Assembly (NCBI RefSeq): GCF_032362555.1
Contig: NC_083508.1
Span: 11,623,001 to 11,687,000, forward strand
Reading direction: 5' to 3'
From: Amyelois transitella
Taxonomy: Eukaryota; Arthropoda; Insecta; Lepidoptera; Pyralidae
DNA length: 64,000 nucleotides
Of the stretch, positions 24,562 to 62,979 are shown piece after piece. The notes beneath the pieces were generated by a model, which was given only the letters and a program-made list of their open reading frames with translations, was not told where the DNA came from and searched no databases. Positions within the stretch are counted from its first letter, which is position 1, and each line of letters opens with the position of its first letter. The translations under genes were made by a program, and so were the position numbers.

Positions 24562-27500
24562 TTAGCGTGCGGGCTCGGTGGCCAACGCGGGGGCGGTGAG
24601 CAGCTGGCGGGTGGACGATGTGGAACTGTACGAGTCGCCGGACGAACGCACGCTGGACTGAGATAGGGGGGTACCTGAAAAAATATATATATCATACTTA
24701 AGACAACGGCAGACATACGTGATTCCCTGTTCAATTAAAAAAACCAAATTGAAGTTGCTCTACAGTGACTACCTTTCTGATGCAAGAAAATGACACTTGC
24801 CTTGTTAAATAGCATCTCGGGCTAATAAAAAATAAACGCTATCTCTTTGTCCAACTAATTGAAAAAACCGTATCCAAGCGGTATATAACTGTTAACTTGA
24901 TTAAACACAACTAGCTGTCATCCGCGCTTTCATCCGCCACAAAGTTTATTTCTTTTTTTAAGTTTTTCATAATCTTAGGTTTCTATCTTTTTACAGTTTT
25001 TACTAGCTTTTACCACACGAATTAAAAAAATACATGTTTATCGCAAATATGAAAGAGAACTATAGTTTTATATAAAAAAGTATATACCGTATGTCCTTCA
25101 TCAGACACTTAATTATATGTACGCAAAATTTTAAGAAGATTGGTTCAACAGATAATTCTTGAAGAGGCAACAAACAAATAAACTTACTAACGCAATAAAT
25201 CAAAGTGAAATAGTGAATATGATATTACTAGGTACTCTGTTAGAATTCAACTCGTAAAATATACCTTACAATCTTAGCAATAAGACACTCGACATACCGG
25301 GTAACGACGTCACGTGATGCGGCAAAGCCCACCGCTGTGGCGCGCACTCCACTACACTGTTAGCGGGCTCCTGCGAAAGAACCTAATTTTAATACTATTA
25401 TCACCTCAACGGTAACGACCAAGCACCAAGGGAAAGATATAACGTGTTAACAATTTAATTATTATTTTTACTTAGTGCTTGTGTGCCCGTACCCTTAGGT
25501 AGTTTTTATGACGGACGGCACACAACACAAGATAACTGTTTCAATTCGCCGTAAAATCGGGGAGATGACAGTCTAATAAGGTATGCGTTTCAGCCCTTGG
25601 TCGTAAATTCAATAGGAGATACATTGAAAATAATATAAGATACTAATGAAACAGTTACATGAATGATTGCGCAAATTATATCAACGGAAGCAAGTAAACA
25701 CACAAAATCAAATCCATTTCCTTACTTTTGTTTAATTACTAAATAATACTTTTTACTTTATTTACCTTTGGACAAAAAAACTATTAAATATATACAAATT
25801 CAATATAAAATGATTCACCATTTGTTGTCGTTAATTTTAGTCCCTAGTTATTCGGAATAACAGCATAGATACAATAAAAAGAAACACCAAGTTACTCTGA
25901 AACTAAAGTATCTACTTATTTTAACACTATTTTTAAAATTGAATATTGCTTACCAACAAATGGTAAAACTGTCATTCAAACAACACAAAGCCGAATCAAA
26001 TAAAAAAAAACACACACACAGACAAAAAGACAAAGAATAACTCTGCACGAACAAAAATGGCGGATGATTTCAAGATGGCGGCGATGCGAACAGCTGACTT
26101 ACGGCGGGCTTCGGCGACAGCAGCGTGGTGGCGGGCTCCTCCGGCGTGAAGTACTCGGAGTCCGACGCGGCCGGCGGGGACTCCGCCACGGCTGCCACCA
26201 AGCCACCATATAGCTATTATTTCTACTTTCTTCTTACCCCTAGCGTTAATTCCGATTACATTCTAACCTCTTTGGAGGTGAGACCAGCGTACGTCTTTGA
26301 CAATGATCCTATATTGCGTCAATCAGTTACACCAAGCGACTTCCGTCTGACCTCCGCAACCTTTGCAGGAAAACCTAACCCGTACTAACTCATGGTGAAA
26401 TCCGCACTTGATGAATGTACCTAATCCCTCAGTAATATTACTTCGCCTTTGACAACATCCGTAGGAAAATTTTGGAGTGGTCCTATTCCAAAAAAGCCGG
26501 GAACCACACGGCTATCATTTCTACTTTACCCAAAATAGCATATAGTATGCTCACAGCGTGGACAACATTACACATCTCTTATACAGCATATAAAAGCGAT
26601 GATATTTCTCAGCAGAATACGCTTAAGGTTATACAATTTTATGGTTAGTCCTTGATAGAAGTGTAGCATATGTAAAGAAATCTGAATCTAGCAGGTGCAT
26701 GTTTCCATACTCATGACAAATGAAGTTAATATAAGCGTCAAGCAAGAGATCCATTAACATGACTACGTATGAAGACTATTGAATGAATAATAACATTTAC
26801 TGTATAAAACGGAGACTTCATTTATCAGTACTCTCATCTTCCTCCTGGCTTTAGACCCAGTTGCATCCTCACCACTATGGAGAAGGAACTTCTTTAAGGA
26901 AGTTTGCGATTGTTGTCAAAATTCAAATATAACATTTATGCAACCCTGGTTTACAACAACAAATGCGATAGCTTACTCACAGTTAGCGGTGACGTGTGGT
27001 TCTTCGGTGTCTGTGTCGTCGATGTGCGCGAGCGAAGGCGCGGACAGCCGCAGCGCTCCGTTGCCGGTCTTCTCGGACGGCGGGGTGGACACGACCTCGC
27101 ATTTTGTCGGCTGAATACAATACATGTCACGTTTTAATACCGAAACAGATGTAAAAGTAACAATTGTACCTACCCTTCGTGGAAAGAGGCTTTTATGAAT
27201 GTATTAGTTTTGCCCGCGACTTATCGTAAGTGCATCTATAATAATGTTCGTTTCGTGGAATAGTTATTTTGGGCATCATTGACGCCCTCAAGGATGAATA
27301 ATTTTCCTCGTTTTTTTCGCAGTTTCCGTTATTACTCTGCTTCTTATAGTTGCAGCGTGATGTTATATAGCCTAAAGCCTTCCTCGATAAATGGTCTATT
27401 CAATACAAAAATAGTTTTTCAATTCGAACCAGAGTAGTTCCTGAGATCAACGCGTTCAAACAAACAAACTCTTCAGCTTTACAATATTAGTATAGATGTA

Positions 27501-30500
27501 CATAGCAATGATCTAGGATCTAGGCTTATAAACTTGCAATTCTCCTTTTAGGCGATGGGCTAGCAACCCTTGTCGCTATTTGAATCACAATCGATCCTAA
27601 AGCCAAACAGCGTCGCCTATCATCAATGAGCCTTTACAAGACTGTTGGCTCTGTCTACCCCGCAAGGGATATAGACGTGATTATATGTATGTATGTAGCA
27701 ATGATGTGGCCTATCATCAATGAGCCTTTACAAGACTGTTGGCTCCGTCTACCCCGCAAGGGATATAGACGTGATCATATGTATGTATGTATGTAGCAAC
27801 AATCTCACAGTGTGCGTGAGCAGCGGCGACAGCCTCTCGGTGTCGCTGTCGGGCTCGGCGTCGTCGCGGCGCGGCTCCGAGCGCGCGGAGACAGACTCCA
27901 GCGAGCCCGAGGCTGAGCGGAGCGAGCGAGTCTCGCCAGGGTATTCCAGGCTAAGAGAAGACTGAAAAGTTTTTGAGGTACAGTCAATTTTCTAAAAAAA
28001 TATATATTTGGAGCCGTGTGGTTCTAGGTACCAATAAAAAAAACAATAGGATCACTACATCTCGTTCCCATGGATGTTGTTAAAGGAGACTAAGCTATAG
28101 GCTTATAACCTTGGGATTCTTCTTTTAGGCGATGGGCTAGCAACCTGTCACTATTTGAATCTCAATTCTATCATTAAGCCAAACAGCTGAACGTGGCCTG
28201 TCAATCTTTTTAAAACTGTTGGCTCTGTCAACCCCGCAAGGGATATAAACGTGATTATATATATGTATGGAACCTTAAAAGGGAATATAGACGTGATTAT
28301 ATGTATGTATGGAGCCTTAAATAAAAAATAGTAACAAAACATTATCATCCTTCTGTCGTTAGTCCCGACTGGATCCTCACCACTCAGGACAGAAGCCCAG
28401 GGTGCGTCTTTGATCATGATCCTGGATTGAGTGAGTCAAGTTTTTACACGAAGCGACTCCCGTCTGACCTCCGCAACTTTTGCAAAGGAACCCATGTTGT
28501 TTTATAGTTAGTTACATCCAGTTGCTTCAAAGTGCAAATTCCTTAATAATGTTTTCCCTCACTGTCAGAACACCGGTTAGCAACATATACATATAACAAT
28601 AACGATACTTTTAAAAATTCGGCAGAAAATTATCCATAATCATGTAAGCAATTAGAATAGAATATTTATTTGCTTTTGACTAGGGTGTAAAAAAAAAATG
28701 TGTAAAACAAAACATATTTCCTTCTGGTCAGCCATTTATTATAGTATGCAAATTATTATAAAATTACACATAAGTCTTAAGTCAAATTAATTAATTCTTA
28801 ATAAAATGATGATAATTTTATGTCAATTTGTTACAATAAATGAAAAAAAAAAAACTTCATACTTGTCAATATTTGATTTCGATAAAATAAAATAGAATAG
28901 TAAATATATACGGGACAAATCACACAAATTGAGTTAGCCTCGAAGTAAATTCGAGACTTGTGTTACGAGATACTAACTCAACGATACTGTATTAATAAAT
29001 AAATAATTATGAATAAATTAAATTTTTATCTAAAACTAGCGACCCGCCCGGCTTCGCACGGGTGCAAAATTATAAATGTTATCTATCTATCTTCTTCTAT
29101 CTATACTTATAATAAATCTGTAGAGAGGTCAATTCTGTACATAGAATATATTTTCAAAATAACTATCAGGGGGTGATTAGTGATCGATACTGATGCCAAA
29201 AATGCAATCAGTAAAATTTTTGTCTGTCTGTCTGTCTGTCTGTATGTTCTTTATAGAAACAAAAACTACTTGATGGATTTGAACGAAACTTGGTACAGTT
29301 ATTCTTCATACTCCTGAGCAGGTTATAGTATACTTTTCATTACGCTACAATCACTAGGAGCAGAGCAGTGAAAGGAAATGTTGGGAAAACGGGAGAAGTT
29401 ACTTGATTTTTTAAGCTTCCGTCGCGTGTGCAGCCTTAATGGTCAAAGATACAGCAAAACCATGTATAACGGAAATATTCTACATGAAATTATTAAAAAA
29501 ATATCCCAAGACAGCATAAGTCTATCTTTTATGGTTGACTCACAATAACACGTGTAATTCCTAATAGCTTAGCAGTTCGGAGATTTCTGATTATATTTCT
29601 TTACTCTGATGTTTATAATACCAATAACACTCACACTCATTCGTAATTCTTAAAAGTTAATATAAGTACCTATTCAATAAAAAAAGAATCATCGAAATCG
29701 GTATAGAAACACCAAACTTATACATGAAATGAAATACGCTAGCAAGCCATCGCGCGTAAATACTGAATTATGCTATAAGGATTATTTTTGCGTAACGGTT
29801 ACCGCGCTCGACGCGGCTAGCGACGGCAGGGTAGAAAAGGGGCGGGAGGCGAGCGCAAGCTTCATGACCAAGGCAGCCAGGGGGAGACTTCACGCAGTTC
29901 TCTTCTCCAGCCTCCCCCTGAGGACGAAGCTCGGGATCTACCAAACGTACGTCAGATCCCGCCTCACGTACGCGGCCCCGGCGTGGTACGCATTCTGCTC
30001 TGAGACCAACAGGAGAAGACTCAGAGCCCAAGAGAACTTAAGTCTCAGAGCAGTCGTCGGAGCCCCGCGCTACGTGAGGAACTCGACGATCCTCAGGGAC
30101 CTGAAGTGGGAGAACCTAGATATTCGAGAGGGCAGACGCGTCATCACACAGCCACCTGCGCGGCATCTCGCCGCTCCAGGCCCGCCCTCCGGGCCGTCGT
30201 GTGAAACTGCCCCTCGCTGCCTTGCGGCAGACGTTGTCGACCAGTGACAACGCCGCCGCCGATGGGAACTCCCAGTGTATGAAGTCGTGAACACCCATGC
30301 CGTCACGGCCGCCCCATCGACCTGCCTACAGTCGTAGGCAGCGATGATGCCATTGAAGAGGGCCAAAAGCCCTGACCAATCTACTTCGACTCCCCTAAGG
30401 GAGTATGGGAAGATTGCGTGGGATTTTGCGTGATGCGCGTACAAACATACAGACAGACAGACAAAAATTCTAAAAAAAATTGTTTTGGCTTCTATTGGCC

Positions 30501-33500
30501 CTAAAAAGACCCTTTATATTTTTTTTTCTTAAATATTTTCACAAGTTCAATGTTCAGTTACAGTTTTATTATATGTTTGGATAACGTCTAGCTGCAACTA
30601 TTAGGAGCGAAGAAATAATAGAAAATGTGAAAAAAAATCGGGGAAGGAGCATCCTTGAGGGCTTCAATGATGCCCAAAATAACTATTCCATGCGGACGAA
30701 GTCGCAGGCACAGCTAGTTATACATAAAAACCTTGCCTCTTGAATCACTCTACCTGTTACAAAAAACCGCATCAAAATCCGTTGCGTAATTTTAAAGATT
30801 TAAGCATACAGAAAAACAGACTAAAATAGCGACTTTGTTTTATACTATGTAGTGATTTAATTTATTACCTTAGATTTGACGTCGTTGTGATGGTTATTCA
30901 AGAGCGGACTGCTTGCGGCGGCCTTCTCTTCGCACCGCTTCGCTTCTTCTTCACGCGCCAGCAACACGGACATGCGGAACTGCAAACATACACACATAAA
31001 GTCACGTCCATAGACGTAGAAAAAAAAACGGACAGAGTTTTACTATACGGCAAAATGAAGCAACAATGGTATGCCGGCCAACTGTATATATATATGTATA
31101 TATACACGCCTCACGCGCACACTCTCACTAATAGTGTGACAGTCGGCCGCCATTACGTCGTAGATGCGTCATGCTGTCACTCACGTATGCGTACAATGCC
31201 GCCATTATGATGCTTGTAATATAATATTTTTTTTCTTTTTTATCAAAAAATACTTTATTATTATTAAAAAAAATAACATTGCATTGTTATTTTTTAATGT
31301 TTTTTTATGTACTACTAAGAATTTGTTATGTAAATTAATTTATTTATAAATACATAAATATTTATAAATATAAAGTATTTAAAAACAAACAAATTTCTAA
31401 AAACTAGTTAAAAAAAAATGTTGACCCTTGTAAAACAAAGTAATGTGTTACCTCCGGCGTGGGCGCAGCGTGCCGGAGCTTGCCGCTGCCGAGGCTGGTG
31501 GACTCCAGGTTGCTGCGGTTCAGGATCTCCGCCGCCTGGACACATTGCATAGGTAAATTGGAATGGAAAAGATCTGATAAAAAAAAATGGCCAAGTGTGA
31601 GTCGGATTCGCGGACGAACGGTACCATCATCATTTGTTAAGGTTCAGCTGTCTGTCATCAGACTATCTCATAAACCGAGAATGCTAAGATTTTCTCATTT
31701 TTTTAAGGTTTGTTTCTTTCTACCTGTTTATTAAAATCGACCTAAAAATTGCTTAAAATTACGTTGTTGTATGGGAACCCCTTTTAATAATAACTTTATT
31801 AGAATTAAATTATTTATTTTGAAAGATAACATACCAAATTCTATGAGTCTACCTGTAACCGTTATTAATATTGAACAAAATTCTGAAGACATCATTGTCA
31901 CGTCTTGTTGTTATAATCGGTTTCAAAAAAGAAACAAATACAAAATGGCGTTATGTACTTGCAGTGACAGATCGTAGCGTTAGCAAAAAATGTGTTTGTT
32001 TAGTTAAAATATTTTTGTTAAAAATATAAAAAAAAATGTACATTGAATATATATTTACCTAAAAACAGAAGTAGAATACGAATTTAAAAAACCTCTGTCG
32101 GAATTACATAATTACGACGCGAAACAATTTTTTTTGCTTGCAGTACCGCCGTATATGAGTAAAGATGGCAATAGATTCGTTTCTTTATTGAAAATCAAGA
32201 TCAATATTCTCAGAAAATAAGCCTTCGCAGGCAAATATTCGCGTCATTTAACATTTTAATAAAAAGTTCTATCTAATATACCTATTGGTATTCGTCAAAT
32301 AACTACAAGCTAGAAGGTATAGAACGAAATGCTCCTCAAACTAACACACGTGTGGTTCCCGGCAGTGCCGTGTGGTTCCCGGCACCAATACAAAAAAGAA
32401 TAGGACCACTCCAACTCTTTCCCATGAATGTCGTAAAAGGCGACTAAGGGATAGGCTTATAAACTTGGGATTCTACTTTTAGGCAATGGGCTAGCAACCT
32501 ATAACTATTTGAGTCTCAATTCTATCTTAAAGCCAAACAGCTGAACGTGGCCTATCAGTATTTTCAAGACTGTTGGCTTTGTCTACCTCGCAAGGGATAT
32601 AGACGTAATTATATGTATGTAACTGACACCCTATCCAACAGGGTGCTTGTACTTGGGCCAAACAAATCGGCAGACCACTGTCAATCAAAGATGCACCAGC
32701 TCCTGAAGGTGTTCCAGTGTAAGCTATACCTGCTGAAGTAAGTGTTCCAGGGTAAGCTATACCAGCTGCTGCAAGTGTTCCAGTGTAAGCTATACCAGCT
32801 GATGCATGTGTTCCAGTGCAAGCTACACCAGCTGCTGCATGTGTTCCAGTGCAAGCTATAATAGCTTTACCTGTTCAGCGGTGTCGGTGTCGGGGCTGGC
32901 CATGGCGGGGCGCGGCGCGGGCGAGCCGGGCCCGTTGAGCGCCTCCAGCAGCGACACCGGCTCGTAGCCCGCCGGGATGTTCTCCATGCTGCCCTGCGGA
33001 CGCGGTGCAATCGTACGGTGTGTCAAACGTCGCGGGTAACACGAATGAGAGATGATTAATGACAATCGTATTGAGTAATTTATTTGACACTTATTAAGTG
33101 ATATGAAGTGTGCCATAATAATAAATAAAAATTTTGAATTTGAACAATCGCGAATCATCAAATAACCGCTAGAGGATAGCGGGCTACGGTAAATGCTAAC
33201 AGTCCAAAGGGGCCGTGGCGCGTGCGCACTCTTTTATAGGCCCCCCAGTCACAAATATCACCTTCTTAGCATTAACCCTGGTAAGTATTCTGATGCAAAG
33301 CTAATATCCTGAAGCAAATCTTGTTAGTAATACCATCAAATAGGAGAGCGCTGTCAGTGTATTCGGTGGATTTTTTTTACACAAGTGACTGCCGTCCGTA
33401 ACGCCAGGGCATTACTATCTCCTAGACGCGGATTGACAGCAATATATGATAGAATATATGGGGCAGTTGTCGGTATAGTACCGCAAAGAGTCTGCGCACG

Positions 33501-36500
33501 AGTTGCACAAACAAAGATAGCGGCACCACAAGATGATATAATACGGTATTCGTTGAACAAACGGTAATACTTTTTTAACTCTTTTATTTACTCACATCGG
33601 GCGGACTAGCGGCGGGCATCAGCGCGGGCGCAGTACTAACTCTCTGCAGGGCTCTGATTTGCAGCAAGGCGCGGAACGGAGCCCTACATATCGGACAGTT
33701 GTTGGCCTGGTACCGCAGAGAGTCTGCGCAGGAGTTGCACAAACAAAGATGGCGGCACGGCAGGATGAGAGTGTCGCGCACGTCGCACATGCAGATCACG
33801 CATTCCGAGCCACCGTCCTCGGTTTCTTCGTCGGAGGTCGCCTATCAATGTTAAAATAGGTCAAATTTTACAATGATACATACATACATACATACAATCA
33901 CGCCTCTTTCCCGAAGGGGTAGGCAGAGACTACCTCTTTCCACTTGCCACGATCTCTGCATATTTCCTTCGCTTCATCCACATTCATAACTCTCTTCATG
34001 CAAGCTCGGCGGTTTCGGGTACTTTTGACCTGACCCTTTACCAGGACGTCCTTAATTTGATCAAGATACGTTAGTCTAGGATTTTAGACATAGATTCAAG
34101 ATAAGACTGTGAGGTGATTTTAAGATGCCGTGTGGTTCCCGGCACAAAAGAATAGGACAACTTCATCTCTTTCCTATGAATGTCGTATAAGACGACTAAG
34201 TTAGTTAGAAGGACAACAAAAACTTGGGATTCTTCTTGCAGGCGATGGGCAAGCGACCTGTCATTATTTAAATCTCAATTCCATTAGGTATATAGCCAAT
34301 CAGCTGAATGTGGCTTTAAGGTTTTTTCAAGACTGTTGGCTCTGTCTACCCCGCAAGGGATATAGATTAGAACAGAATAGAAGAGAAAAATTATTTACAT
34401 AAGCGATTTAAATTCAAAACCTATATCAAAGTGCTGAACTTACTACCTCTTTTATCTAAAGGTACATTTCCAGAAAATGCAATTTTGGTAAGCCGTAAAA
34501 ATGATTAAAATCACTTAAAACATCAAGCTCAAATATTAGCTCACCTTGGTATCCAAGTTCTTGTTCTCAATGCCGTATATTTCTTGTAGGAGGTAGCACA
34601 GGCCGTCCACAAACAATTTCTGTTTAAGCGCCTTCAACACGTACGTTCCGTCTGAGTGCTTCTCAACGATGGCTATGGTTGTGTGGGACTGTCTTATCTC
34701 TGTAATTTTCAGATACCAACGTATTAAATTCTGGATGGACGTTGCAAAAGACGACATGTGAAGTGGCAAGCGAGCGAAGAGCGGGAAAGTATCGAGTATC
34801 TTTAATTTTATTGATAGCCTCTGTGGCGCAGGGTAATACGCGTGTCTGTGACATCGGAGGTCCCGGGTTCGAATACTGGCCAGGGCATGATGAGAAAATA
34901 ACTTTTTCTAATTGGCCTGGGTCTTGGATGTTTATCTACATACATATTTACACATAAGTATTTATTATAAAATATAGTAAATAAATATAAAATATATTAG
35001 TATCTCGTAACACAAGTCTCGAACTTACTTCGAGGCTAACTCAATCAGTGTAATTTGTCCCGTATATATATATTATATATGTCCCGTATATATCTTTTCT
35101 TTTTTTAATTGGTTAAACATTTCGCCTAATGAAAATGGAAGCTGTATGGTCTACGACTTAGATTTAAAAGATCTATACTTGTAACTTGATGTCCGTCGAA
35201 AATGCTAGACAATATTAAATTTAAGTTACATATGTGACGTCATTAAGTGTTACCGTGTATGGAATATTTAAAAATAAATCTATTCTAATCACACTCACCG
35301 TCCTGTCCCTCGTCGACTACACAGTAGACGGCGATGGGGATGATCTCCCTGTCAGCATTGTACACCAGGTCCTCTTCGGGGTGGCGGGACGGGTCGAACA
35401 CGTGGCTGATCTGGCAGAACTGCTGGTTGGCGCCCTTTTTGTAGTGGTACGTTTGCGACGTCATGGCCGGGTCGCGTGGGTAGTAGCTATATTTCAAAAA
35501 AAAAAAATATCATGGGTCTATAAAATTAACATACAGTATAAGTTCAAATTTTTAATACTGGTTTTTTTTTTATTTGACATTTTTTATGGAGCTATAAAAC
35601 AATTAAAAATTTGAATTTAGTCTATTATTACACAATTAGATATTATGATAGAAAAAAATTGGTATTAAATTTTTGTAGCACTTGATGGCTAAGAAATAAA
35701 TCAATGTTACTTTGTAAACTTGGATATTTGCGGAGACCTTTACAATATTTAAATTAAATCCACTACCTGTCAGTACAAATATTATACAAATGCGTGAAAG
35801 TGATTTTTGTAACATGTTTCGAAACGTCCAAGTGAAAATAAAGGTACATATTATATTGCCGGTACTTGCGCTTTAATATCTGCAGTATTTATAAATAGTA
35901 ATTGCATGAAATATATTAATACATATAAAACGTGAAATAGATATTTTGGGCATCATTGGAGCCCTAAAGGATGAATAATTTTCCCCGTTTGTTTTTTTCA
36001 CATTTTCCATTATTTCTTCACTCCTTATAGTTGCAGCGTGATGTTATATAGCCTTCCTCGATAAATGGTCTATTCAACACAAAAATAATTTTTCAATTCA
36101 AACCAGTAGTTCCTGAGATTAGCACGTTCAAACAAACTCTTCAGCTTTATAATATTAGTATAGATGTAACACCCAATTTTATACCGCATTTATAGCAAAT
36201 AAAGCAACATTTCAAACTGATGGTAGGTATATGATTCAAGACTGCTACTTACACAACTCCAGCCGGTGTGACCTCCTCAGTGCAGAAGTAGAATATTGTG
36301 ATAGCGCAGCGAGCATCGCAGTCAAACGTAAACTCTATGTTGTAGTAGGTACCTTTTCCATTACTGGAAAAATGGATTTGTTAATTGGATAGGGTAGGTT
36401 TCTACGTATGGCGATAAAAAATTTAGAATGCCTCAATTTTTTTATGTAAATTCAGTTAAGAGTTTTTTTTTATGTAAATTCAGTTATTTTCATGCCCTGC

Positions 36501-37523
36501 ACATACATATAATCTCGTTTATATCCTTTGCAGGGTAGACAGAGCCAACAGTCTTAACAAGACTGATAGGCCATGTTCAGCTGTTTGCTTAATAATAGAA
36601 TTGAGATTCAAATAGTAACAAGTTGTTAGCCTGTCGTGTAAAAGAAAAATTCCAAGTTTATAAGCCCATCCCTTACTCGCCTTTTACGACATCTACGGGA
36701 AAGAGATGACGTGGTCCTATTCTTTTTTCTATTGGTGCCAGTAACCACACAGCTATGCATGTCCTATCTTTAGCTATTTTGAGAACATAACATTTAAAAA
36801 TAGAATGAAATTGTTGTAATAACTCACTCTTATTTATTGATTCATCCTTATTAGAGAAACAAACACTCATATGAATGTTAAATTAGGTATTTAAGAAATG
36901 ACTTCATGAAATCAAATCGTAAACCATCAAGAACTTTTATCTCTTTAACTAACCTGTCCACAGATTTCAATACACCATCACCAATATTATTCTCAGCTAG
37001 TTTAGCCACGGGATCAGGACAGCGAACAAACCTCAATGACTCTTTTCTGATGTTTACAAGACTCTTTAGAGTTTTTGTTGGCTCATTTGATTGTGGTGGG
37101 GGGTATGGGAACTGAAAGGGAATGAGAAAAATAAAATTTATTTGTAAAATGTAATTTTTCTTAAATATATAAAAGTAAAAAACCTTTCAATATTGAAAAT
37201 TTATAGTAATTTACATCAAAAGTGTTCTTTATGCATAAGAAAAATATTGTTTTTGACTTAATTTACATTTGTGGGTAGATAAACATTTTATCTTCTAAAC
37301 CATTACCATATCATAACTTGTAACATACTCACAGGTGTAGGCCTACTGCCAAGAAAGTTAAGGTCAGCATTTTCTCCAAACAAATATGCTTCGGGCTGAG
37401 GAGTATCAAATCTTTCGCCTCCCATTATGAAGTGGCTCCCAAAGTAGTTTCCTAAAGATAGTTGACTTCTTTGTTAGTACTATATATGAAGTTCAGTAGA
37501 AAATGCCTTCATATGGGCATGAT

Positions 37524-38326: not shown

Positions 38327-40732
38327 ATGGGGCGCCGGCCAGCTAGGTGGTAAGTTTACAATCAATTTGTCGGATTTTAGGGGTCATTTATATCCAATTT
38401 TATACCTTATGTTATCTCGTATAATTTCAGTTACCGGTACTGTAAAAACAAACCGTACCCAAAATCGCGGTTCTGTCGCGGTGTGCCCGACCCAAAGATC
38501 CGCATCTTTGACTTGGGAAAGAAGAAGGCCACAGTAGATGACTTCCCACTGTGCGTGCACTTGGTGTCCGATGAGTACGAACAGCTAAGCTCTGAGGCGC
38601 TCGAGGCGGGCCGTATTTGCTGCAACAAATACCTCGTTAAGAACTGTGGCAAGGACCAGTTTCACATCCGCATAAGATTGCATCCATTCCATGTCATCCG
38701 CATCAATAAAATGTTATCGTGTGCTGGAGCTGATAGGTGAGTCAATTAAAACTTTCTAATGTGCTTAATAAATAATAAATTAATTAACATTTTTAAGAGT
38801 TTGTTACTTTTGAAAGCTGAGGTACAGTCATGACTCAGTCCTCAGTAAGAGCTCTTTTGTGGCCTTGATTGATAAGTTATAAACTTTTTCTTATCTTGAT
38901 TTTCGAAAGATTCAACGAAATTTTCAATCTTCATGCATGTAGTTATATATGTAGCAATATCCAATACCTGTTGTCAGTTTTAGAATTTTGCAGTAATATT
39001 GCACAACATTACAGTAACAGTAATCTAGAAGAAACCTACACATTTAAGTAATTGTTCTTGTTGATCTTCAAATATGACTCTTTGATATATCAGTGATTAA
39101 TTATAAATCTATACTTATATTATAAAGCTGGAAGGTTTGTTTGTTTGTTTGAACGCGCTAATCTCAGGAACTACTGGTTCGAATTGAAAAATTATTTTTG
39201 TGTCGAATGGACCATTTATTGAAGAAGGCTTTAGCTATATAATATCACGCTGCAACTATTAGGAGCGAAGGAATTATGGAAAATGTGAAAAAAAAAACGG
39301 GGAGAATTATTCATCCTTGACAGATTCAATGATTCTCAAAATAACTGTTCCACGTGGACGAAGTTGCGGGCACAGCTAGTAAATAATAAATGACAATGAA
39401 AATGCTAATGCTAACCGCACTCATGATCCATAATCATAACAATTGCAACAAAAATAGAATAGTTGAAATCATTCTGCCCCCTAATTCACAAAATTGACAA
39501 GGTATATTTCTTAACTACCTTCTCTCTCTATCTTTAAGTCAAGAGTTAAAGAAAGATAGAAGATAGCAATTGGTTTCCAGCACTTAAAACTAGGACCTTT
39601 CCATAACTTTCCCATGGATGTCGTAAACTTGGGGGGTTTACAACATCAATGGGAAAATTCCTCTGGTAGGCGATGGTCAGCAGCTTGCCACTATTAGAAT
39701 CTTAAGTTTGAGTCTGGCTGGGCAAAAAAAGAAATTACAATAAATATTTGTAACACAATTATCATTTATCAATTTCAGGCTCCAGACCGGGATGCGCGGT
39801 GCTTTCGGCAAGCCGCAAGGCACCGTAGCGCGCGTGCACATCGGGCAGCCCATCATGTCCGTGCGCTCCAGTGACCGCTGGAAGGCGCAGGTCATCGAGG
39901 CTCTGCGTCGTGCCAAGTTCAAGTTCCCTGGTCGCCAGAAGGTATCCAAATCTTTTCTTTCTCATTTAAGATTCTCATTTAATCCTGGACCCTTTGATTT
40001 GACATGAGAAAGCTTTGGCAACTTGGCTTCAGGAAAAACAACACATCTGTGGCAGGAATATGATGAAAAACATTGCATATCATCAAACGCTGTGATCTCT
40101 ACCTTGTTGAGTGTCTATTGTTCAGAGATACAAGTATTACTTAGTTCAGACAGCAGTCTTTCACAATCTTACACTGATTGTTACTCAATATTAATCAATA
40201 TGAAACCTGAAAACTATTCACAAGTATATTTTTAAGATTGTGGAGAAAAGTAATGCAATGGTTGATTTTTGGTTGTAGATGCAAATTTTTAAAGTCCATA
40301 ACACTAAAACTCTTCAATAAAAAAGTATGTATATAAATTTGACATCACCAAATACAACAAAAAGTAGATTTCCTTCCTGCTGGACAAATATTTTAATAGG
40401 ACCAATAATTTCTAGATTTAGTAGCCATAGTCCACACTGTTTACTCAATCCAGGAGTCATTGGACGATGATGGTTAGTCATTAATCCACACTTTGTTCTG
40501 CCATTTCTGTGGGAGGTTTCTAAAACATGTTTCTCTTTGCCTAATCCTAAATTTGATTCCCCAGATCTACGTTTCCAAGAAGTGGGGCTTCACGAAGTAC
40601 GACCGCGACGAGTTCGAGCGCCTCCGCGACGAAGGCCGCCTCGCCAACGACGGGTGCAACGTGAAGTACCGCCCTGAGCACGGCCCGCTCGACGCCTGGC
40701 GCAAAGTGCAGTACGAGATCCACAATGTATAG
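38327..40732 (+). CDS. RpL10: 60S ribosomal protein L10 (uL16)
   Basis: Large-subunit protein near the peptidyl-transferase and tRNA sites, loaded last in 60S maturation. Exons 38327-38349, 38431-38736, 39779-39941 and 40565-40732 total 660 nt, 219 residues, the normal eukaryotic length. It opens [20 protein letters not shown] and contains [38 protein letters not shown] and [19 protein letters not shown], near-invariant in animals; the C-terminus ends EIHNV. The ATG lies six bases after a 5' UTR intron acceptor. Codon use is strongly GC-ending, as expected for a highly expressed gene. The second intron carries a Lep1 Helitron-like element. Divergent from MGRN1, convergent with POLH. Confidence 0.97.
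39108..39379 (+). mobile_element. Helitron-like element, Lep1 type
   Basis: TCTATACTTATATTATAAAG to TGCGGGCACAGCTAG; apparently complete, inside an RpL10 intron. Confidence 0.7.
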
Positions 40733-41973: not shown

Positions 41974-44900
41974 TCAAGATTTAAAAAACGAGTCAATAGA
42001 TTTACACGATGGCATTTTATTCTTTTTCCTAGGCGACGCTGGGGATTTCTTTTTTCTCTTCACGCTATTGCTTGTAAAATGACCCGGTGTGGATTTCATA
42101 TTCAAACTCCTACTCAACCTTTGGGCTTCATGGAAATCCATATGTTCACTGAATTTTTCGACTGAAACTTTTTTGCCACATTCCGCACATGTTTCCGTGG
42201 GCACTGTGTTATCAATTTTGACAAGAAATCCAGCGATAGACGAAGTAGTGTCATGTTTCAACTTCTCGACAGGTTTCTTTGTACTGGTTGCCTCAGATTT
42301 TTCTACAGATCTTTTAGAATTACCTATCTCATTTTTAACCACTGTTTTTCTTTCTTTTATTTCATTTCGAACCTGTTGTCTTTCTTCTTCTCTTAGTCTG
42401 AGTGCCAAATGATAATCAGAGTGAGTTTCAAACATGTCTATAGTTAAAATTTTCTTACAATCTGGACACTCAAAGGTTTCTAAACAATTATTGCTGTTAC
42501 CTCTAATATTATCTAGACTTTTTCCTCGCGAATTATTGTCTGCATTATGTGGTTCACGTGCTTCCTCCAATTGATCAGATGTGTCTTCATTTATAGCATT
42601 AGAAGTTTTTAATAGTTCTCTCATACTGCTAACGCGCGCTACACCTTCTGGGTCTTCTTCAAACAAGGCTATACTTTTATTGATTTCATTGTTTATTGTG
42701 GAACTAGAATAATCGGAATCGTTGCTGTTCTCGCCACAGTTAACAACTTCGCAAGTAGGAGTTGTTGGAGGTTTTATTTTACTTTTATCAATATCTTCCT
42801 TACTTTTAAGGCCATTGTTTAAAAATTTGGCAAAAAACGATTCCTGCTTGTCCAATGTAGACGCAAGAACAGATTCATTTTTAACAGCTTCTGTGCTATC
42901 GTCATTTCTTTTTGGTATCACTAATTCATTTTTAGCTGGTTTGGTATCGGCGTGAAAGAACTTCTGAAATATATAATCTTTTCCATTGCACAATTTCTTG
43001 GACTTACTATTATCTGCAAGTGTTTTTTTACTGTCTCCTTTATCGCTGGTTATATTTTTCTTCTCTGTCATGTCTTTAGATGCTCCAGCACCAAAGTAAT
43101 CATTAATCTTTTTTATTTTTTTGCTTTCGGAATTATCTTCAAACTTTCCTACACTTATCCCCAAGAATTTAATGGTAGATTTTAGTTTTCTATTAGGCTC
43201 ACCATCTGAAAAAGTAAATATAATGGCGTTTTCAAATCTTGCTGGGCTGATATAATTTCTATCAACTGTATATAATTTCTATCAACCTGCTATTAAGTAA
43301 TAAAATAGATTACCTTTCAACTTAACTCCTTCCATACTATCCATGACCAAATCCAAGGCTTTGCTGCAGAAAAGTTCTCCACACAGTTCATCGTCAACTG
43401 CGAAGTTATAGGACCTTGAACTTCCTGAGTCCCTGCCGTCAGGCAACTGCGTGGTGAAACTGACGACCATCTGACGTGGAGTCCTGTTGTTTTCTAGTGC
43501 ATCCTTCTCTAACCTATCTTCTATCTCATCCCCCAAGTCACGGAGCCACTTCTTCAAGCCATCAAGATCTGTTAAAGCAGATTTGCCTCGCAGTTGCTTA
43601 CAGCATCCAATGCTTTTCGCGTTAAATCTAGCTTGGACTGGCTCTAAGTCGACGCCGCGCGCTATGTTGTAGAGCCACGTTCTGGGATTGTGAAAACATA
43701 TTAGTATGTGGGTTTTATGTAGTAAAATTAATTATTATACAGAGTAGAAGCTATTCATGTGACTTGCTATAGCCATTTCTAAGACGATCGGCATCAACTG
43801 AGTTAGCATGGACGCTTCGTGAATTACTTTACACAGTCCAAAGAATATATACTACAATAAAAATATTACATTTAAAATAAAGGATGGTGTGGAAATAGAA
43901 ACAGCCAACTTAAAAAAATAAACAATCATAAAAGTGGGATCCAGAAGATGTATCAATTCTAAGAAGAAAAATAAGTGCCTTACCCATTTTTTTCATCAAA
44001 TTTCGTTTGTAACTGTTTCTCTGTAAAATTTTGTAGCTCTGACATTTTACTGATTTTCAGAGTTTCGCAGACCGTGTCTCCAAATTTTCCGCCCAAATGC
44101 TTTACCTTCTTAAGTGACAGAGTCCTGTTAGTGAAGTTAAAGATATATAATTTTCATTGCATGTAGTAACAATAATCAAGATTTTTTGTTATAACACTCA
44201 TATATCACAAAGAAATTTGAGAAAAACATGTAAACTTATGCACTATGCACAAAAAATGTGATAAAAAAATTGAAATCAAATTTAAAAGTAAAACGATTTT
44301 ATAAAAAAAAATTACCTATATAAAATGTTAATGGAGTGTTTAGGTAAAATTGTCTGTTTGTTTGGCTTGTTCATTCCACAGACCAGCTTGGCCAGGATTT
44401 TGTTATGTGCGATGCCTGCTGAACATGTGTAACCTGTAACATTTATATAAATAAATAAGTAATACGATACTGGCAAATTATACATACATATAATCACGTC
44501 TACCTCCCTTGCTGGGTAGATAGAACCAAGTCTTGAAAAGACTAAAAGGCCACGTTCAGCTGTTAGCTTAGTGGTAGAATTTATGTTAAAAAAGTGGCAT
44601 GTTACTAGCCCATCGCTAGAAGAAGAATCCCAAGTTTACGTTTAAGTTTAATACCTACAGAACAGTTTATTATAAGGAAATATAATTTTTCTAAGAAACA
44701 ATTTATATAAAGAAGGTGGGATTATGTAGAAGCTTAAAGATTCACCTGTTTCTTCAAATACAGCAGCTCTTATTTCACTGACAATCACCGCGCCCACTAG
44801 AAGTCTTTTAGCATGCTCATAATCAAACTCTATGGAGTCAGCGCCACAGTTATGAACATCCTGGATAAACTCTGCCAAACTGTCATAACCCAGAGCATAT

Positions 44901-46458: not shown

Positions 46459-52255
<5,797 letters not shown>

Positions 52256-52573: not shown

Positions 52574-52728
52574 ATTATATACGGTCTTAACACACAGCAT
52601 AGATAATGAAGAAGCTGTCTATGGTTTTACCATACATACGGTATAAAGCCAACAAATTGTCATTGGTTTAGCTTTCATTTCCGGTCACCGCAAGACATAT
52701 CCATCCTGTCAATGTCATCTCTTCATAG
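52574..52728 (+). repeat. DIRS left terminal inverted repeat
   Basis: Starts ATTATATACGGTCTTAACAC. Positions 52587-52728 match the right arm base for base. The outer 38 nt also match the first half of the ICR. Confidence 0.9.
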
Positions 52729-54499
52729 CGTTTTTGGTTTTGCCGCGCAACGGTTTTTCGCTTATGAAAATTTTTTCATAAACTCAAAATAATTAGTATT
52801 ACTGAATGAAAAGTGTTTCAAAGTGGGTTTTTTATCTACCGCGATAAGAAACCAAGAAAATATTTTAATACTTTTACGTAAGTAATATGCAAAGTGCAAA
52901 ACTTGAGTGGGTTCAAGGGGTCCACATCTGCCGCTCCGAATGGAGAGCAAAATGTGAATCCGGTGGCTGAGGGCAGTAGTATAACTAATTCGTTCTTCAT
53001 CTTCGGAAGATGAAGACAGTCATGCCAGTTTGCCACCAAACAATCGACGTAAGTACAATAAAAAATCTCACTATGCAAGAATTGATTCCGGGATTAATCA
53101 GGTCGCTTGCTTTTCTAATTACATTGTGAACACTGTCCCATATATGCCTGCCATGTCAAATGCTAATCTTTGTAGTGTTATGATGGGGCTGCCCCGTCAA
53201 CATAACATCAGGGCTTTTTGAGAAACCCTAATTTAACAATACTGATTTGGCTTTGGGCGATAAAGGTATCCAGCTTTAAATTAATGTGATTATTCCACCA
53301 ACTGAGGAGAAACATTGAAAGAATTGACAACTTTGCAAAATTTTGTTCTATGTCTTGGAAGGGTATACAATACAAGAAAACATTACAAACCGGCACAGCT
53401 AGTTTGAAATTTGTATCACTACAGGTTAATGAAATCTACCATTTCAATAAACAAAAAAGACTATTTGCTGGCAATAGAAAATTTCATTGCCAACTAATAA
53501 AATATAAATTTAGAACAGTGTAGTATATATCAGGCTGGTCTGCAGAGTTTAGTTGATTGGGGAGCGCTACCAATAAAATAGTAATCTGAATATCAACACC
53601 TTTTTTGACCAAGTTAATTTAATTTTTGGTCAGAGATCACAAATAAAAAATGGTATAATATGCAACTTATTTGTAGTAGAAAAGGTCAGAGTGCATTGAA
53701 CTGAGATGCAATTTAATCTCCAAATATAAATTTAAATTTAGCAAATAAAAGTCTTAACTGATTCATCCTCAAACATTAATCATAGAGCTACATTACAGAT
53801 TAAAAAATTTCTTTCCCAGATTAGAAAATTTGCCCAATTCTGAAATTTTTTATTGGCACAAAGATATGTCTGAATACACCTAACTAATTAAAGGAAAGTG
53901 GCATTGTCAAATAAAAAAAAAAAAATATCAAGTCAGTCTTTATATAATGAGAAAGATAAAGATTGATTGGGTTAATATAATTCTAATAAAACAAAGTAAG
54001 TAATTTAGTAATTGTGTCAATTTCTGTGCAATAAAGATATTACAAACAAACAAACAAACTTCAAATATTTTAAGTCTGATTTAAACGCAAAAATAGTTAG
54101 GCCTTTAGTCACAAATATGTTGCCAATGCATGGAGAAACTTTCTAGAATCCTTAGAATATAGTTTGTTTTTATTATTATTATTTTAAATACATACTCAAC
54201 TTTATTAACTGTGATAATGAAATAAAACAACAAGAAATGTTTTTAAATCTGTTATGAGGACTGACTTCCAATAAGTCAACTCTAGAACAATGACGCATTC
54301 TTTTGAGGTGAGTGCTTGAAAGATCATGTTTTCAAGCATGGGACATATTGGTAGCAAGTAAGTTCATACCAGGGCTGTACCCCCTTTAAGTGAAAACTGC
54401 CTTATATATATCCTTCCAAGAATATCTTTCACAACAAAGCATTTTGAGCATAGGTCTATTATCATGTCTTCATCCAAAAGGGATTTTAGAATATGTTTC

Positions 54500-54850
54500 A
54501 AATCTAACCACAGGTTATTCAAAAAATGTTCCTAGTTCAGAAACTAGATTAGTAGACAACCATTTTGTTTGTACATTTGTATCTCAGATTGATTTTTCTG
54601 TTTTCCTCCAAAAGCAGGATTGCCTTGTAAAAATAGATTTGCAACAAGCTATTTTTCATTTCAATAGCAGAAAACCACAGATGATTTCTGTGGATCATCT
54701 ACCAGGGGCAAGAACTACAAGTAACTGCCCTAACATTTAGTCTTTGAACAGCCCCTCAAATCTTTGCAACAGTCACAAACTGGCTTTCAGAACTTCTAAG
54801 AACCTGAGGTATGAGATTGATAGTTTACTAAAACAACTATTTTCTGTCTG
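54500..54850 (+). pseudogene. DIRS reverse-transcriptase remnant
   Basis: One frame reads VFLQKQDCLVKIDLQQAIF, matching the DIRS RT motif in which FLQxGD precedes VKIDLxxAYFH. Further on, pieces around 54740-54800 (APQIFATVTNWLSELLRT when frame-corrected locally) match the next RT block. Stops and frameshifts intervene and the catalytic YxDD box is not intact. Confidence 0.7.
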
Positions 54851-55044
54851 ATCAGATCAAAATCGCACTGTCTGTCTTGTGTGGTGACAGAGATTCTAGC
54901 AAAAATTCTAGAATTCTCTGGTTGGCAGACAAATTACAAGTAATTGGGATGTCTGTTCAGATAATCGATTATCTAGTTCTCACAGAGGACACCCAACAAG
55001 GAATGTGTATCCTACCATAAGAAAATCTCTTTTCTATAATTAAA

Positions 55045-55132
55045 CCAAACAAACAGCTATCAGTCTTTTCGAGACTGCTGACTCTGTCTACTCTGCAAGA
55101 GACATAAACGTTAATTATATGTATGTATGTAG
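55045..55132 (+). repeat. Family A 3' end inserted in the DIRS element
   Basis: AGCTATCAGTCTTTTCGAGA to TATATGTATGTATG; divides the RT and RNase H remnants and so postdates the DIRS coding region. Confidence 0.6.
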
Positions 55133-55189
55133 TCATACAACAAAGAGGGGACGGTAGTGCAAACTGTCTAAATTAAGAGAATTCTGGAA

Positions 55190-56015
55190 GTTATCCAGGA
55201 TCTAAATTGGTGGCTTGGAGCAATAAACCACGGCTTTACACCATTGAGCAAAAGAGGAGTCACTTACTTCCTAGCCTAGGACGCAGCGGATGCGAACTAG
55301 GACGCTCTCCTGAATGGTCATTTCCTCTCAGGGAAATACAATGTTCAGAAAACTTGGCACTCAAACCTAGAAGAACTTTATGCAGTATATGTGTCAATAG
55401 AGTGCCATCTAGAGGACTTGTTGGGTATTCACAGGCCAATGCAGTCGATCCCTTCCCGGAAGGCTAAACCGGTATTGTCGACGCTCAGTTCTAGAAGAGG
55501 TCGATCAGTGCCCGAGTGGTACTTACACTGGCCTCGGAGGCTCTGTTCAAAATGTGGGGAGCACCCAAAAATAAAATTATTAGCATACAAAGAAACAGGA
55601 GTGGTCAACCTCTATGTTTGACTCTGAAGGGTCAGCAACTTTTTGCGACCCATTCAGTCGACAGTGGGACTACAATTTAGGTTGGATATTTCCACCTGCC
55701 AACCTTATTGACACACCTTAATTGTGCAAAAGGAACTTATATCCCAACAGTCCCTCTTTGGATGCAATGCTTTTGGCTACCAGACCTGCAAACCAGGGCA
55801 CTGTGTGAGCCTGTAGCAATCACGAACCTGCGGAAGGTTCTAATAGGCCAGATCACAGGGACATACTCTCTAATGGTCGGCAAATCATCTCTCCAGGCAT
55901 GGAAGATTGAGGCTAGTCGAGTCAAATCTCACACTGGTCTATTAAAGAATGACATTAATTTAGAAGTACAAGTAGTTGGCGACCATCTACTCTTTCAACA
56001 TATAAAGCTCCTATA
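55190..56015 (+). pseudogene. DIRS RNase H and connector remnant
   Basis: In successive frames: DAADAN and NGHFLSGK, then WHSNLEELYAVYVSIECHLE (RNase H Asp and Glu positions), and near 55730-55890 GTYIPTVPLWMQCFWLPDLQ and RALCEPVAI. These blocks follow RT in DIRS pol proteins. Several stops and at least two frame changes. Confidence 0.65.
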
Positions 56016-56329
56016 GGAGCTTGGTTTTCTTGGGGCCAGCTAAAAAGAATAAATGATAAATAGACTAATGATATTGCTTAATTTTTAGGCAGTTTATTCT
56101 AAAGGAAACACCTAGCTTATAACACAATAGGTTCACACAAATAAGCTATTTTGACCTTTTGTGGAGCTGCTAATAATTAATATTTAAACAATTTCTTTAT
56201 TGACAAGTATTAAAAGTTATACTTAGAGCTTAACCCCAGACTAATAAGAGCCCCCAATTGGGACCTAAAATGGTTTGATTAGTTGATCAAAACCCTTTTC
56301 ATAGAGTCATTATCCCATTTCTCCAGGAG

Positions 56330-56760
56330 AGCAGCTATAGTTGTATATATCACATTAGCTGCGGGAAGTAGAGTTCATGATTTAACACTACTTGTTATAT
56401 CCGAACAAGGTATAATATAAGATGATATAATTATGTGGCCTTAATTTTGAATTTTGTTCTCTAACTGACTCTAGAAGTTATGAGCAGTCAAGATGGCGTT
56501 TATTGCCCCATGCTGAGGAAAGAGTTTGCCTAGTTTAACTTAGAACTTTCAATAAATCCTGAACTTGAGGGTGGAAATTTAATATTATATATATAATTAT
56601 TATTATTTTTTTTTATCTTTTATGGGAGCAATATGCCTGCTCTAACAGCTATGATAGCTGTGTGTATAAGTACTATTTTCAAAGAAATTATTATTGATGC
56701 ATTTCCTGGAAGTATAAGGTCGGCGGTGGCCCTTTCAGCAGTTCAGAAAAATTTTAATTG
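56330..56760 (+). pseudogene. DIRS tyrosine-recombinase remnant
   Basis: Weak but ordered matches: ITLAAGSRVHDLTLLVIS (the LxxxxGxRxxDL box carrying the first catalytic Arg), LTDSRSYEQSRWRLLPH, and PGSIRSAVALS at 56688-56750. The catalytic His/Tyr end is not evident. Called from motif order and position between RNase H and the ICR. Confidence 0.5.
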
Positions 56761-57335
56761 AGGAAATTCATCATTTCACATTAATAGGAATAATCATTAC
56801 TGCTGTCCACATTATTGCCATCCAGTATATAGGTCACAGATTAACTTAAATGACTGTGTACATAATAACTTTTTGAATATTTAAGTTGTTATGTAGAAAG
56901 ATGTAATAACATAATTAATGATGTTGATCATTAACTTCATTTAGTGAATAAAATTATTAAGTATATTATCCTTAAACTTAATAATAATTGTTTTGCAAAT
57001 ATATGGAGTAGTAAAGAGTTAAAACATGTTATGCTTAAATGTTACTTTATTTCAAGCTTGAAATTATCTAATTTAAATAAGATTTTCTTTTGATTTATTG
57101 AGATTAAATGTTGTTTTAACATTTATCAGGTCTATTGGTAATAGGCATGTAAATATGTTGCAAGTGATACTTTTCAATTTCTGTTACCTAGGTATCACAA
57201 TTTTAATTGAAGTGAGTTGATTTAAAAGATATAACATATTTTTTATTTTTTTCAGCTTACAGTTCACATAGCGTTTTTGGTTCCTTTGATAAAGGTTCTT
57301 AATCATTTCTTGTCACCAGCAGATAACAAACAAGT

Positions 57336-57431
57336 CTTCATTATCTATGCTGTGTGTTAAGACCGTATATAATAGAACTGTTTTGCATTACAACAAAACA
57401 GATATTATATACAATTAACACACAGCATAGA
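57336..57431 (+). repeat. DIRS internal complementary region
   Basis: 57336-57373 is the exact reverse complement of 52574-52611. 57374-57431 is the exact reverse complement of 57583-57640. The point where the two meet fixes both element ends to the base. Confidence 0.9.
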
Positions 57432-57457
57432 GCAAGGCTCTTGCTGCTGAAGAACTA

Positions 57458-57640
57458 CTATGAAGAGATGACATTGACAGGATGGATATGTCTTGCGGTG
57501 ACCGGAAATGAAAGCTAAACCAATGACAATTTGTTGGCTTTATACCGTATGTATGGTAAAACCATAGACAGCTTCTTCATTATCTATGCTGTGTGTTAAT
57601 TGTATATAATATCTGTTTTGTTGTAATGCAAAACAGTTCT
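57458..57640 (-). repeat. DIRS right terminal inverted repeat with outer extension
   Basis: 57458-57599 pairs with the left arm. 57600-57640 (TGTATATAATATCTGTTTTG...) has no counterpart on the left and is copied only in the ICR, as known for DIRS-1. Confidence 0.9.
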
Positions 57641-58462
57641 ATTTGCAATTCATATCCGTTGTGAGTGCGTTTTCACCATCATAAGTGATGGGCAAAGCCG
57701 CTTGTATCCCAGTAGACTAGACAGACTATTGTTTTTAACAAGTTTAAGGAAATGTTAAATGTCAATGCTTCATATAGATATGAAGCATACGGAGCTTTAA
57801 CATTTCCATGTAAGAAATTCATTTTAAAAATAAATTCCTTCTTTCATACCAGGTCTGATTTTGTATTGATAATAAAATGATTGTTATTATCGCATTCTCT
57901 GAACTTAAAAACTATTTTGCTGGTAAGAGATCAAAGATATCCATCTTGTGTCTTGTTTTTCATAAAATGGATTTATATTTACATTATGAAGGCAAACCTA
58001 AAAAAAAATAAAAACGATTTTTTTGAAATAAATTGATTAGAACTTGATTTTTTTGTGGACCTTCGTTCGATTCGTAGCGATTTTCATACTATTAAAATAT
58101 TTTTTTTCGGAAAGAATCACATCCCTAATTTATGAAAATTGAAGAAGCATGTCAGACAATCAAGTGTCAATTGCGTTAATAGTGGTTTTAAAAAAAAATT
58201 GACTTCTCTTTTGACGCTCTTTAGTGTCATTGTCACATAATAGCGTCATGTCAGTCGTTTTGCTGCCAGGAGGAGTGTAAATTGTCAAGTACATATATTT
58301 AAGTAGGTATAGGTACCGACTTGCCCCTAAAATCAAAAAAAAATGATAAAGAAATTGTTATTAACATAAAATTTGTGTTCATAAAACATTTTTCAGTAGA
58401 AGAACGTTATAAAAAACTACACTATTAATAATTTTTCTGAAAGGTAATGAAGAAAATGACGC
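57641..58462. promoter_or_regulatory. Upstream region of the Josephin gene
   Basis: About 0.8 kb between the DIRS right end and the start codon, AT-rich, no ORF. The promoter is expected here; no core element is clear. Confidence 0.4.
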
Positions 58463-61686: not shown

Positions 61687-62979
61687 CTAGTTTATTCCGG
61701 GCAGTTCCGCGGCGGAACAGTTGTAGTTCTTGGAGATGATGAGGCGGTCTGGGTCCAGGCGCAGTTCCATCATCAGCGCGTAGATCTGCGCGCGCAGTTC
61801 CGCTTGGATCTCACGCTCGCGACCCAGTATCCAAATGCGGTCTGAAAGTAAAGTAGAAAGAATTCGATATTCCGTTAATTTCAGCTAAACATATAAAATA
61901 ATCAGTCATAAAGACACAATTAGTAGTTGTAGTATCATATTAATCGGTAAGTGGGTGATAAACAATAAAATAGGTACTAGGCACAGTTATCTTTATAACA
62001 AATAATGTATTGAAGGCATGACAATAGCTGTATGTGAATGTTATCACCAAACAATACGACCTTCCCTACATACATTTAAGGCATACATACATACATACAT
62101 AAAATCACGCCTCTTTTCCGGAGGGGTAGGCAGAGACTACCTCTTTCCACTTGCCACGATCTCTGCATATAAGGCATATTATACTATAAAGTAAAATAAT
62201 AAATTTTATTCGCTACCTACCTGAATGCGCGACGCTGACACTAGTACAGGACCAGATGATCGCGAATTTATCGTAATCTGTGAATAGGATATTATAGAGT
62301 CCCGCGCCCGGCAGCAGCCGCCCGATTATGTACGGCATGCGATTATTGACCTTGTAGCGGAACAACGACGACCCGTTGTGGCTCGGAATGCCTAGTCCAT
62401 ATGTTGTAGAAGGGCTGCCTAGCCTGAAAGTGTAACAAGGCCAAGATGAGAACCTTGGGGGACTCCAAAGAAATTGTAAAAGGCTAAGGGCAGGATCTTG
62501 GGGAACACCAAAGAAAATATAAGGGACCAAGTATAAAACCTTGGGGGACACCAAGTTTAGGACTAAACAATTGCGTTTATTTTCCAGCTAAGAATCATAT
62601 ACAGTGGTATAAATATGGCTTTTGGTACTTTCAGCATCATATTTGGCTTTAGCGCAGTCCGAGGGAATGATGTGTGCCTGACGCCCTGACAGCTTATACT
62701 TTACAAGCATTCTCTAATGGATTTACACTGTGCATATAACGTAAATCACACGTCAAATATTACCTGAAGAAAACCAACTTCTGACAGATGTTATTGCTAA
62801 ATTCTAAAAAAGAGACTTAATTGGATGATACAATAAAAACTAGCTTACCACCTGTTAACAGTGTTGATTGTGATTAAGAGATACCCCCTCTCGTCGATGG
62901 CCAGGTTGAGCTCTGTGCAACTCGCAGAAAGCTCCATGATGTAGAACGAACGCTCCACTTCGAACCAGGTGCCCGCCAT
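61687..62979 (-). CDS. Apolipoprotein D-like lipocalin, 3' portion (5' exons not seen)
   Basis: Secreted small-hydrophobic-ligand carrier of the ApoD/Lazarillo group. Three exons: 62979-62852, 62423-62221 and 61841-61687, ending at TAG. They give ~161 residues with consistent phases. The first holds the lipocalin GxW motif in MAGTWFEVERSFYIMELSAS, with a following Cys. The second has the FTDYDKFAIIWSC strand block (the TDY..Y..x(V/I)W(S)C signature). The third has the conserved helix start RIWILGRERE and a terminal Cys (NYNC). The first visible exon begins at ATG, but an acceptor precedes it and a signal peptide is missing, so at least one 5' exon lies upstream, in 62980-64000 or outside. A family E repeat (62086-62168) lies in the last intron. 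Confidence 0.88.
62086..62168 (-). repeat. Family E fragment with CATACATACATACATA run
   Basis: AAAATCACGCCTCTTTTCCG to CCACGATCTCTGCAT; in the lipocalin intron. Confidence 0.6.

Follow-up and report, generated by a model that had tools for sequence, protein, structure and literature searches.

The stretch analysed here, referred to throughout as the window, consists of 64,000 nucleotides of contig NC_083508.1 of the pyralid moth Amyelois transitella (assembly GCF_032362555.1, positions 11,623,001 to 11,687,000 of the forward strand), and it contains a DIRS1-like retrotransposon with exact ends and an interior that looks far older than those ends. All coordinates are positions in this 64-kb window, and the sequence is taken as assembled. 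The paired termini of the element show no mismatches (0/142, 0/39 and 0/61), as against 22.3% divergence from consensus for a short interspersed element (SINE) nested in its interior. The ends are expected to drift like the body once an element has inserted, and the combination of exact ends with a decayed body therefore amounts to an age mismatch, implying that, most likely, the body had decayed and the SINE had arrived before the ends were last made. Because the interior was already coding-dead while the ends were fresh, the enzymes of the last round were most likely supplied in trans. We thus infer, with a probability of roughly 0.6, the recent transposition of an already coding-dead DIRS copy, that is, of a non-autonomous DIRS element. 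Neither the old nested SINE nor an interior more decayed than the ends allow had figured in the initial annotation of this DNA, which had recognised the element by its architecture.

Termini, boundaries and class of the element

The termini and the internal complementary region (ICR) comprise the following features.

52574..57643, + strand: copy of a DIRS1-like retrotransposon, 5070 bp, ATT...ATT (from the overlap of the internal halves; no duplication beyond ATT)
52574..52728, + strand: left terminus, a divergent outer 13 nt (52574-52586) and a conserved arm of 142 nt (52587-52728) (repeat alignment)
57335..57373, - strand: ICR, left half (39/39 against 52574-52612)
57344..57360, - strand: 17-nt core, one of four (exact repeat)
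57371..57431, - strand: ICR, right half (61/61 against 57583-57643; AAT overlap)
57458..57599, - strand: right conserved inverted arm (142/142 complementary to the left arm)
57600..57643, + strand: right outer part, about 11 nt of divergent inverted terminal repeat (ITR) and about 33 nt of right extension (rE) (repeat alignment)

All 142 positions of the two arms (52587-52728 and 57458-57599) pair, as had earlier been judged by eye, and no other perfect inverted repeat in the window is as long; next come the element's own 61-bp pair and then a 53-bp pair (16440-16492/28147-28199) that belongs to copies of a dispersed SINE. A chance origin of the arms and of the internal block is ruled out by length alone. 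The initial annotation had also described an internal block that joins the reverse complements of both outer edges, an arrangement that stands, with its dimensions corrected from 96 nt (57336-57431; 38 + 58) to 97 nt (57335-57431; 39 + 61). The left half of the block, 57335-57373, is the reverse complement of 52574-52612 at 39/39 positions, and the right half, 57371-57431, is that of 57583-57643 at 61/61. The halves overlap on the 3 bp AAT at 57371-57373, which constitute the circular junction and thus place the ends of the element at an ATT at 52574 and an ATT at 57643, each complementary to the junction. The left end is the one proposed previously; the right end, formerly set at 57640, moves outward by this overlap.

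The stretch past the exact right arm, 57600-57643, measures 44 nt where 41 nt had been given, and it is unique only in part, since about 11 nt of it can still be aligned to the left edge (57458-57610 against 52574-52728, 97.4%); the remainder, the right extension at 57611-57643 (about 33 nt), is paired solely by the right half of the internal region. The 17-nt core occurs once per arm and once per internal half (52587-52603 and 57415-57431 on the + strand, 57344-57360 and 57583-57599 on the - strand), and the right end of the element folds into a single long hairpin (z -16.9; 0/100 shuffles). The integration junctions, which it had been suggested should be examined for target duplication, show none outside the terminal ATTs when flanks of 3-11 nt are compared.

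Direct repeats of at least 16 nt number three within the element, two of them lying within the ICR/ITR. The third, 52724-52739/57267-57282, is short and non-terminal, and links the inner edge of the left arm with a site about 50 nt ahead of the internal block. It is an exact 16-nt repeat with no third occurrence in the window, and a direct repeat of at least this length arose in 4/300 shuffles of the element interior; it may be a product of chance or a feature of replication.

Assignment to the DIRS1-like group, judged by the termini, is well supported. As described in PMC3266345, DIRS1-like elements carry ITRs, a pair of 3′-terminal ICRs sharing a 3-bp circular junction, and a right extension matched by the right ICR only, and they are believed to integrate by recombining at an identical trinucleotide, with no duplication of the target. 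The same source records NTT at both ends in 23/28 annotated elements, with ATT the commonest, and describes a shared boundary segment like the 17-nt core of the present element. Every one of the terminal criteria taken from it (ITRs, an ICR drawn from both edges with a 3-bp overlap, trinucleotide ends, a right extension and no duplication) is found here, in agreement with the identity first read from the architecture. DIRS-1 of Dictyostelium and other DIRS1-like elements described there share the ITR, the ICR, the 3-bp circular junction and the lack of target duplication; unlike them, the present copy is coding-dead. Two other classes were considered and rejected: PAT/Ngaro-like elements require split direct repeats, and the terminal repeats here are inverted; for a long terminal repeat (LTR) retrotransposon, neither long direct terminal repeats nor a target duplication was found.

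It is extremely improbable that the structure represents another kind of inverted-end element, a foldback element or DNA transposon, that has captured retroelement pieces. Such an origin would suit the coding domains described below, which no profile confirms, but it sits poorly with the absence of target duplication and with an internal region that joins both outer edges on a 3-bp overlap, an arrangement which is not known outside DIRS1-like elements. PMC3266345 gives that arrangement as the mark of the group.

The element adds a new member to a known group, and one that is already known in Lepidoptera. The earlier remark that DIRS elements are rarely annotated in this order is weak, given that PMC3266345 reports six DIRS copies in two families from Bombyx mori, with BmDIRS1 annotated, and that PMC6327564, with four lepidopterans in its sample, names DIRS as one of the LTR-type superfamilies that are most widely distributed in arthropods. 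BmDIRS1, found by name in PMC3266345 only within the literature searched, is given in Table 3 of that paper (2011) as 4870 bp long, with ATT/ATA ends, an AAT junction, ITR 16+155, rE 30 and ICR 40-62. The present element has nearly the same geometry, a likeness of printed dimensions and not of sequence: the ATT start, the AAT junction and the possession of a right extension only are shared, and the ICR (39-61), the ITR (13+142), the rE (about 33) and the length (5070 bp) are close. The two differ in the right end, ATT here and ATA in BmDIRS1, and in pol, which here is broken and bears a SINE.

Decay of the interior

The interior contains the following remnants, named by their likeness to known motifs.

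52994..53197, + strand: possible gag remnant, weak (open frame, position and composition; no profile match)
54390..54963, + strand: putative reverse transcriptase (RT) remnant, motif A-like and TAP...YxDD-like pieces (motif by eye; no Pfam match)
55024..55134, + strand: nested 5′-truncated SINE fragment in pol, between the RT and RNase H remnants (window self-alignment, best E 3e-19)
55223..55420, + strand: putative RNase H remnant, 2 in-frame stops (motif by eye)
55641..56013, + strand: putative remnant of the methyltransferase region, split between two frames, DPFSRQW... followed by ...FWLPDLQTRALCEP... (cf. DLFAS; no profile match)
56259..56758, + strand: putative tyrosine recombinase (YR) remnant split between two frames, the first with 2 stops (motif by eye)

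The region 54380-56020 retains an excess of open frames on the + strand, where open stretches of at least 50 codons sum to 656 codons, a total reached by 0/500 dinucleotide shuffles; the total for the - strand was matched or exceeded in 249/500. The longest single + frame in this region, 116 codons, was reached in 36/500 shuffles and is less telling. The + strand excess is absent from 52730-54379 (272/500 shuffles) and from 56021-57334 (196/500). On the - strand, 52730-54379 has an open-frame excess of its own, reached by only 2/500 shuffles.

Read by eye, the motif pieces follow the DIRS order of RT, RNase H, methyltransferase region and recombinase. The eight distinct pieces located carry 7 in-frame stops in all, and neighbouring pieces differ in frame. 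An RT motif A-like piece at 54618-54662 is followed in a different frame by an RT-like piece with 3 stops (54700-54963), in which Y*NN stands at the YxDD box (54814-54846). The RNase H-like piece is interrupted by its 2 stops, and the methyltransferase-region motif pieces (55641-55845) are spread over two frames. The recombinase-like pieces consist of 56259-56438, with 2 stops, and of 56633-56758 in the other frame, which contains GSIRSAVA and is, by this motif, a putative part of a tyrosine recombinase.

Pfam searches with 6 open reading frame (ORF) pieces, with 6 more pieces carrying X at stops and with one RT read-through matched no retroelement profile, whether for RT, RNase H or a recombinase; the 6 ORF pieces gave 3 weak unrelated matches (E 0.14-0.24), and the first RT piece had 0 matches in the PDB. 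PMC2685390 lists RMPFGL, YLDD and LTTDAS as RT/RNase H motifs common to DIRS and Ty3/gypsy, and LGFLIN and DLFAS as specific to DIRS; the remnants resemble, in order, the printed YLDD, LTTDAS and DLFAS, and the domain names given to the pieces, drawn in part from this likeness, are to be read as putative. The RT, RNase H and YR remnants noted in the initial annotation agree by motif, and the + strand shows an open-frame excess, but no Pfam profile matched. Further along, 56862-56961 is weakly alike (68%) to 31787-31888 and is perhaps another old repeat within the element.

The nested SINE belongs to an abundant SINE-like family of the window, about 270 bp long and tailed by (TATG)n (copies include 16370-16642, 32365-32621, 28013-28269, 48757-49011, 13101-13347 and 36501-36753) and whose copies are pairwise about 70-88% alike. 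Against a consensus built from 13 further copies in the window, which were hand-picked as the longer ones with shorter fragments excluded, the nested copy differs at 21/94 sites (22.3%), the highest value among the 14 aligned; the other 13 diverge by 3.0-16.8%. Private changes occupy 14/94 sites in the nested copy, and 12/98 and 11/100 sites in the copies designated c44 and c27.

An ordinary recent insertion could have an interior that merely seems old, if a SINE of an old and divergent subfamily entered it late and if the frame breaks reflect assembly errors or natural ORF borders. The similar private-change counts of c44 and c27 are in keeping with this, as are the natural frame changes at gag/pol/YR borders in DIRS ORFs and the shift of frame caused by the SINE itself. 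We nonetheless consider it quite improbable, as the 7 in-frame stops lie inside domain pieces, with Y*NN at the YxDD box, the nested SINE is the most divergent of those aligned, the Pfam RT profile is unmatched even on read-through, and errors of assembly would need to have missed all 438 bases of the ends.

Age of the ends and probable mobilisation in trans

The probability that a 142-bp pair remains exact is 0.06 at 1% change per site, 5e-7 at 5% and 2e-13 at 10%. The divergence of the nested SINE suggests well over 5% change in the body, unless much of that divergence predates the insertion of the SINE.

If a coding-dead copy was recently mobilised in trans, its interior would have lost its coding capacity and gained the SINE long before the present copy arose. 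According to the published model of DIRS replication, the element RNA would be reverse-transcribed and its ends then brought together on the ICR as a splint, giving a circle whose junction is ATT; integration of this circle by a tyrosine recombinase at an ATT of the genome would leave the target unduplicated. In the last round, an intact relative would have provided RT, RNase H and recombinase.

Several observations weigh against such a history. The element was seen in one copy, with none confirmed in the viral, bacterial and archaeal collections scanned and no second one elsewhere in the window, where the matches outside it are to the SINE family or are weak or of low complexity. Part of the divergence of the SINE may predate its insertion if the subfamily is an older one, c44 and c27 having nearly as many private changes; 4 of its 14 private changes lie near the 5′ edge, the least certain part of the alignment, and the last 6 of the 14 lie in the 3′ part. 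The SINE is not flanked by any clear target duplication (nothing longer than 6-mers), and the identity of the domains is drawn from motifs.

The main alternative, a history without recent movement, would have an old DIRS insertion decay in place, while gene conversion, or template switching from one inverted copy to the other, kept its arms and internal region free of differences. Conversion could act between inverted repeats separated by 4.7 kb as well as between hairpin-forming repeats separated by 151 bp; the long hairpin at the right end accords with this, and both the decay of the interior and the old SINE would then be explained without mobilisation in trans. Homogenisation would, however, have to cover three separate pairings, including 13 nt and 44 nt that are not common to the exact arms, and to act on a tract as short as 39 nt while the adjoining unpaired body is heavily changed, and we regard it as unlikely. 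Judged by title, the literature searched contained nothing relevant on gene conversion in DIRS elements.

Returning to recent mobilisation of a coding-dead copy, a tentative extension is that the element belongs to a lineage of coding-dead DIRS with a fossil SINE in pol. Such a lineage may have gone on replicating in trans for many rounds, in each of which the internal splint renewed its ends, with DIRS enzymes accepting foreign templates.

Significance and precedents

The mismatch in age between ends and body serves as a natural experiment on possible trans action of DIRS enzymes, a subject on which no publication was found in the literature searched, and likewise on the way in which the ICR renews the ends at each round. 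The survey in PMC3266345 required recognisable RT, methyltransferase and YR domains and left degenerate elements out. Copies of the present kind escape domain-based surveys of this sort; here there was no Pfam match, and the element was identified by its ends alone.

Partial precedents exist. Degenerate DIRS-like families are recorded for Xenopus tropicalis, in which 36/75 Repbase families are partly degenerate in terminal repeats or ORFs (PMC9210276); decayed DIRS families are thus known, and neither an old body with exact ends nor mobilisation in trans is reported in the accessible part of that paper. TARE1 of tomato combines a mutated body with recent amplification (PMC3701649), and TRE5-A.2 of Dictyostelium, which is without ORF2, is mobilised in trans (PMC5633606). 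TARE1 is an LTR element and TRE5-A.2 a non-LTR element, whereas the present element is a YR retrotransposon seen in a single copy. In the literature searched, which lacks most subscription journals, no publication was found on non-autonomous, nonautonomous or defective DIRS, or on DIRS-N1, and no title of this kind stood among the matches listed in wider literature searches.

Searches for relatives of the element yielded little. Viral contigs searched with three protein pieces gave 11, 10 and 6 pattern matches, none of them confirmed, and bacterial and archaeal genome contigs searched with one protein piece gave 105, again with none confirmed; tblastn of phages with one protein piece found none. 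In viral contigs, neither a degenerate motif pattern nor either of two arm patterns had any match (0), and one arm pattern likewise gave 0 in genome contigs. These misses say little because the collections are viral, bacterial and archaeal.

Surroundings of the element

Elsewhere in the window, pieces of a DNA polymerase eta gene (IMS_C and two UBZ fingers) lie at 41974-43731 on the - strand, and an STPRs repeat protein (PF21107) at 21349-22020; this gene content suits an animal, probably an insect. A second dispersed repeat occurs at 11160-11324, 14202-14351, 33876-34056, 48131-48231 and 62083-62170, most pairs being 96-97% identical and pairs with 48131-48231 87-89%. A third, of about 250 bp and 80-89% alike between copies, occurs at 15939-16177, 27254-27500, 35931-36168, 39107-39380 and 3436-3696.

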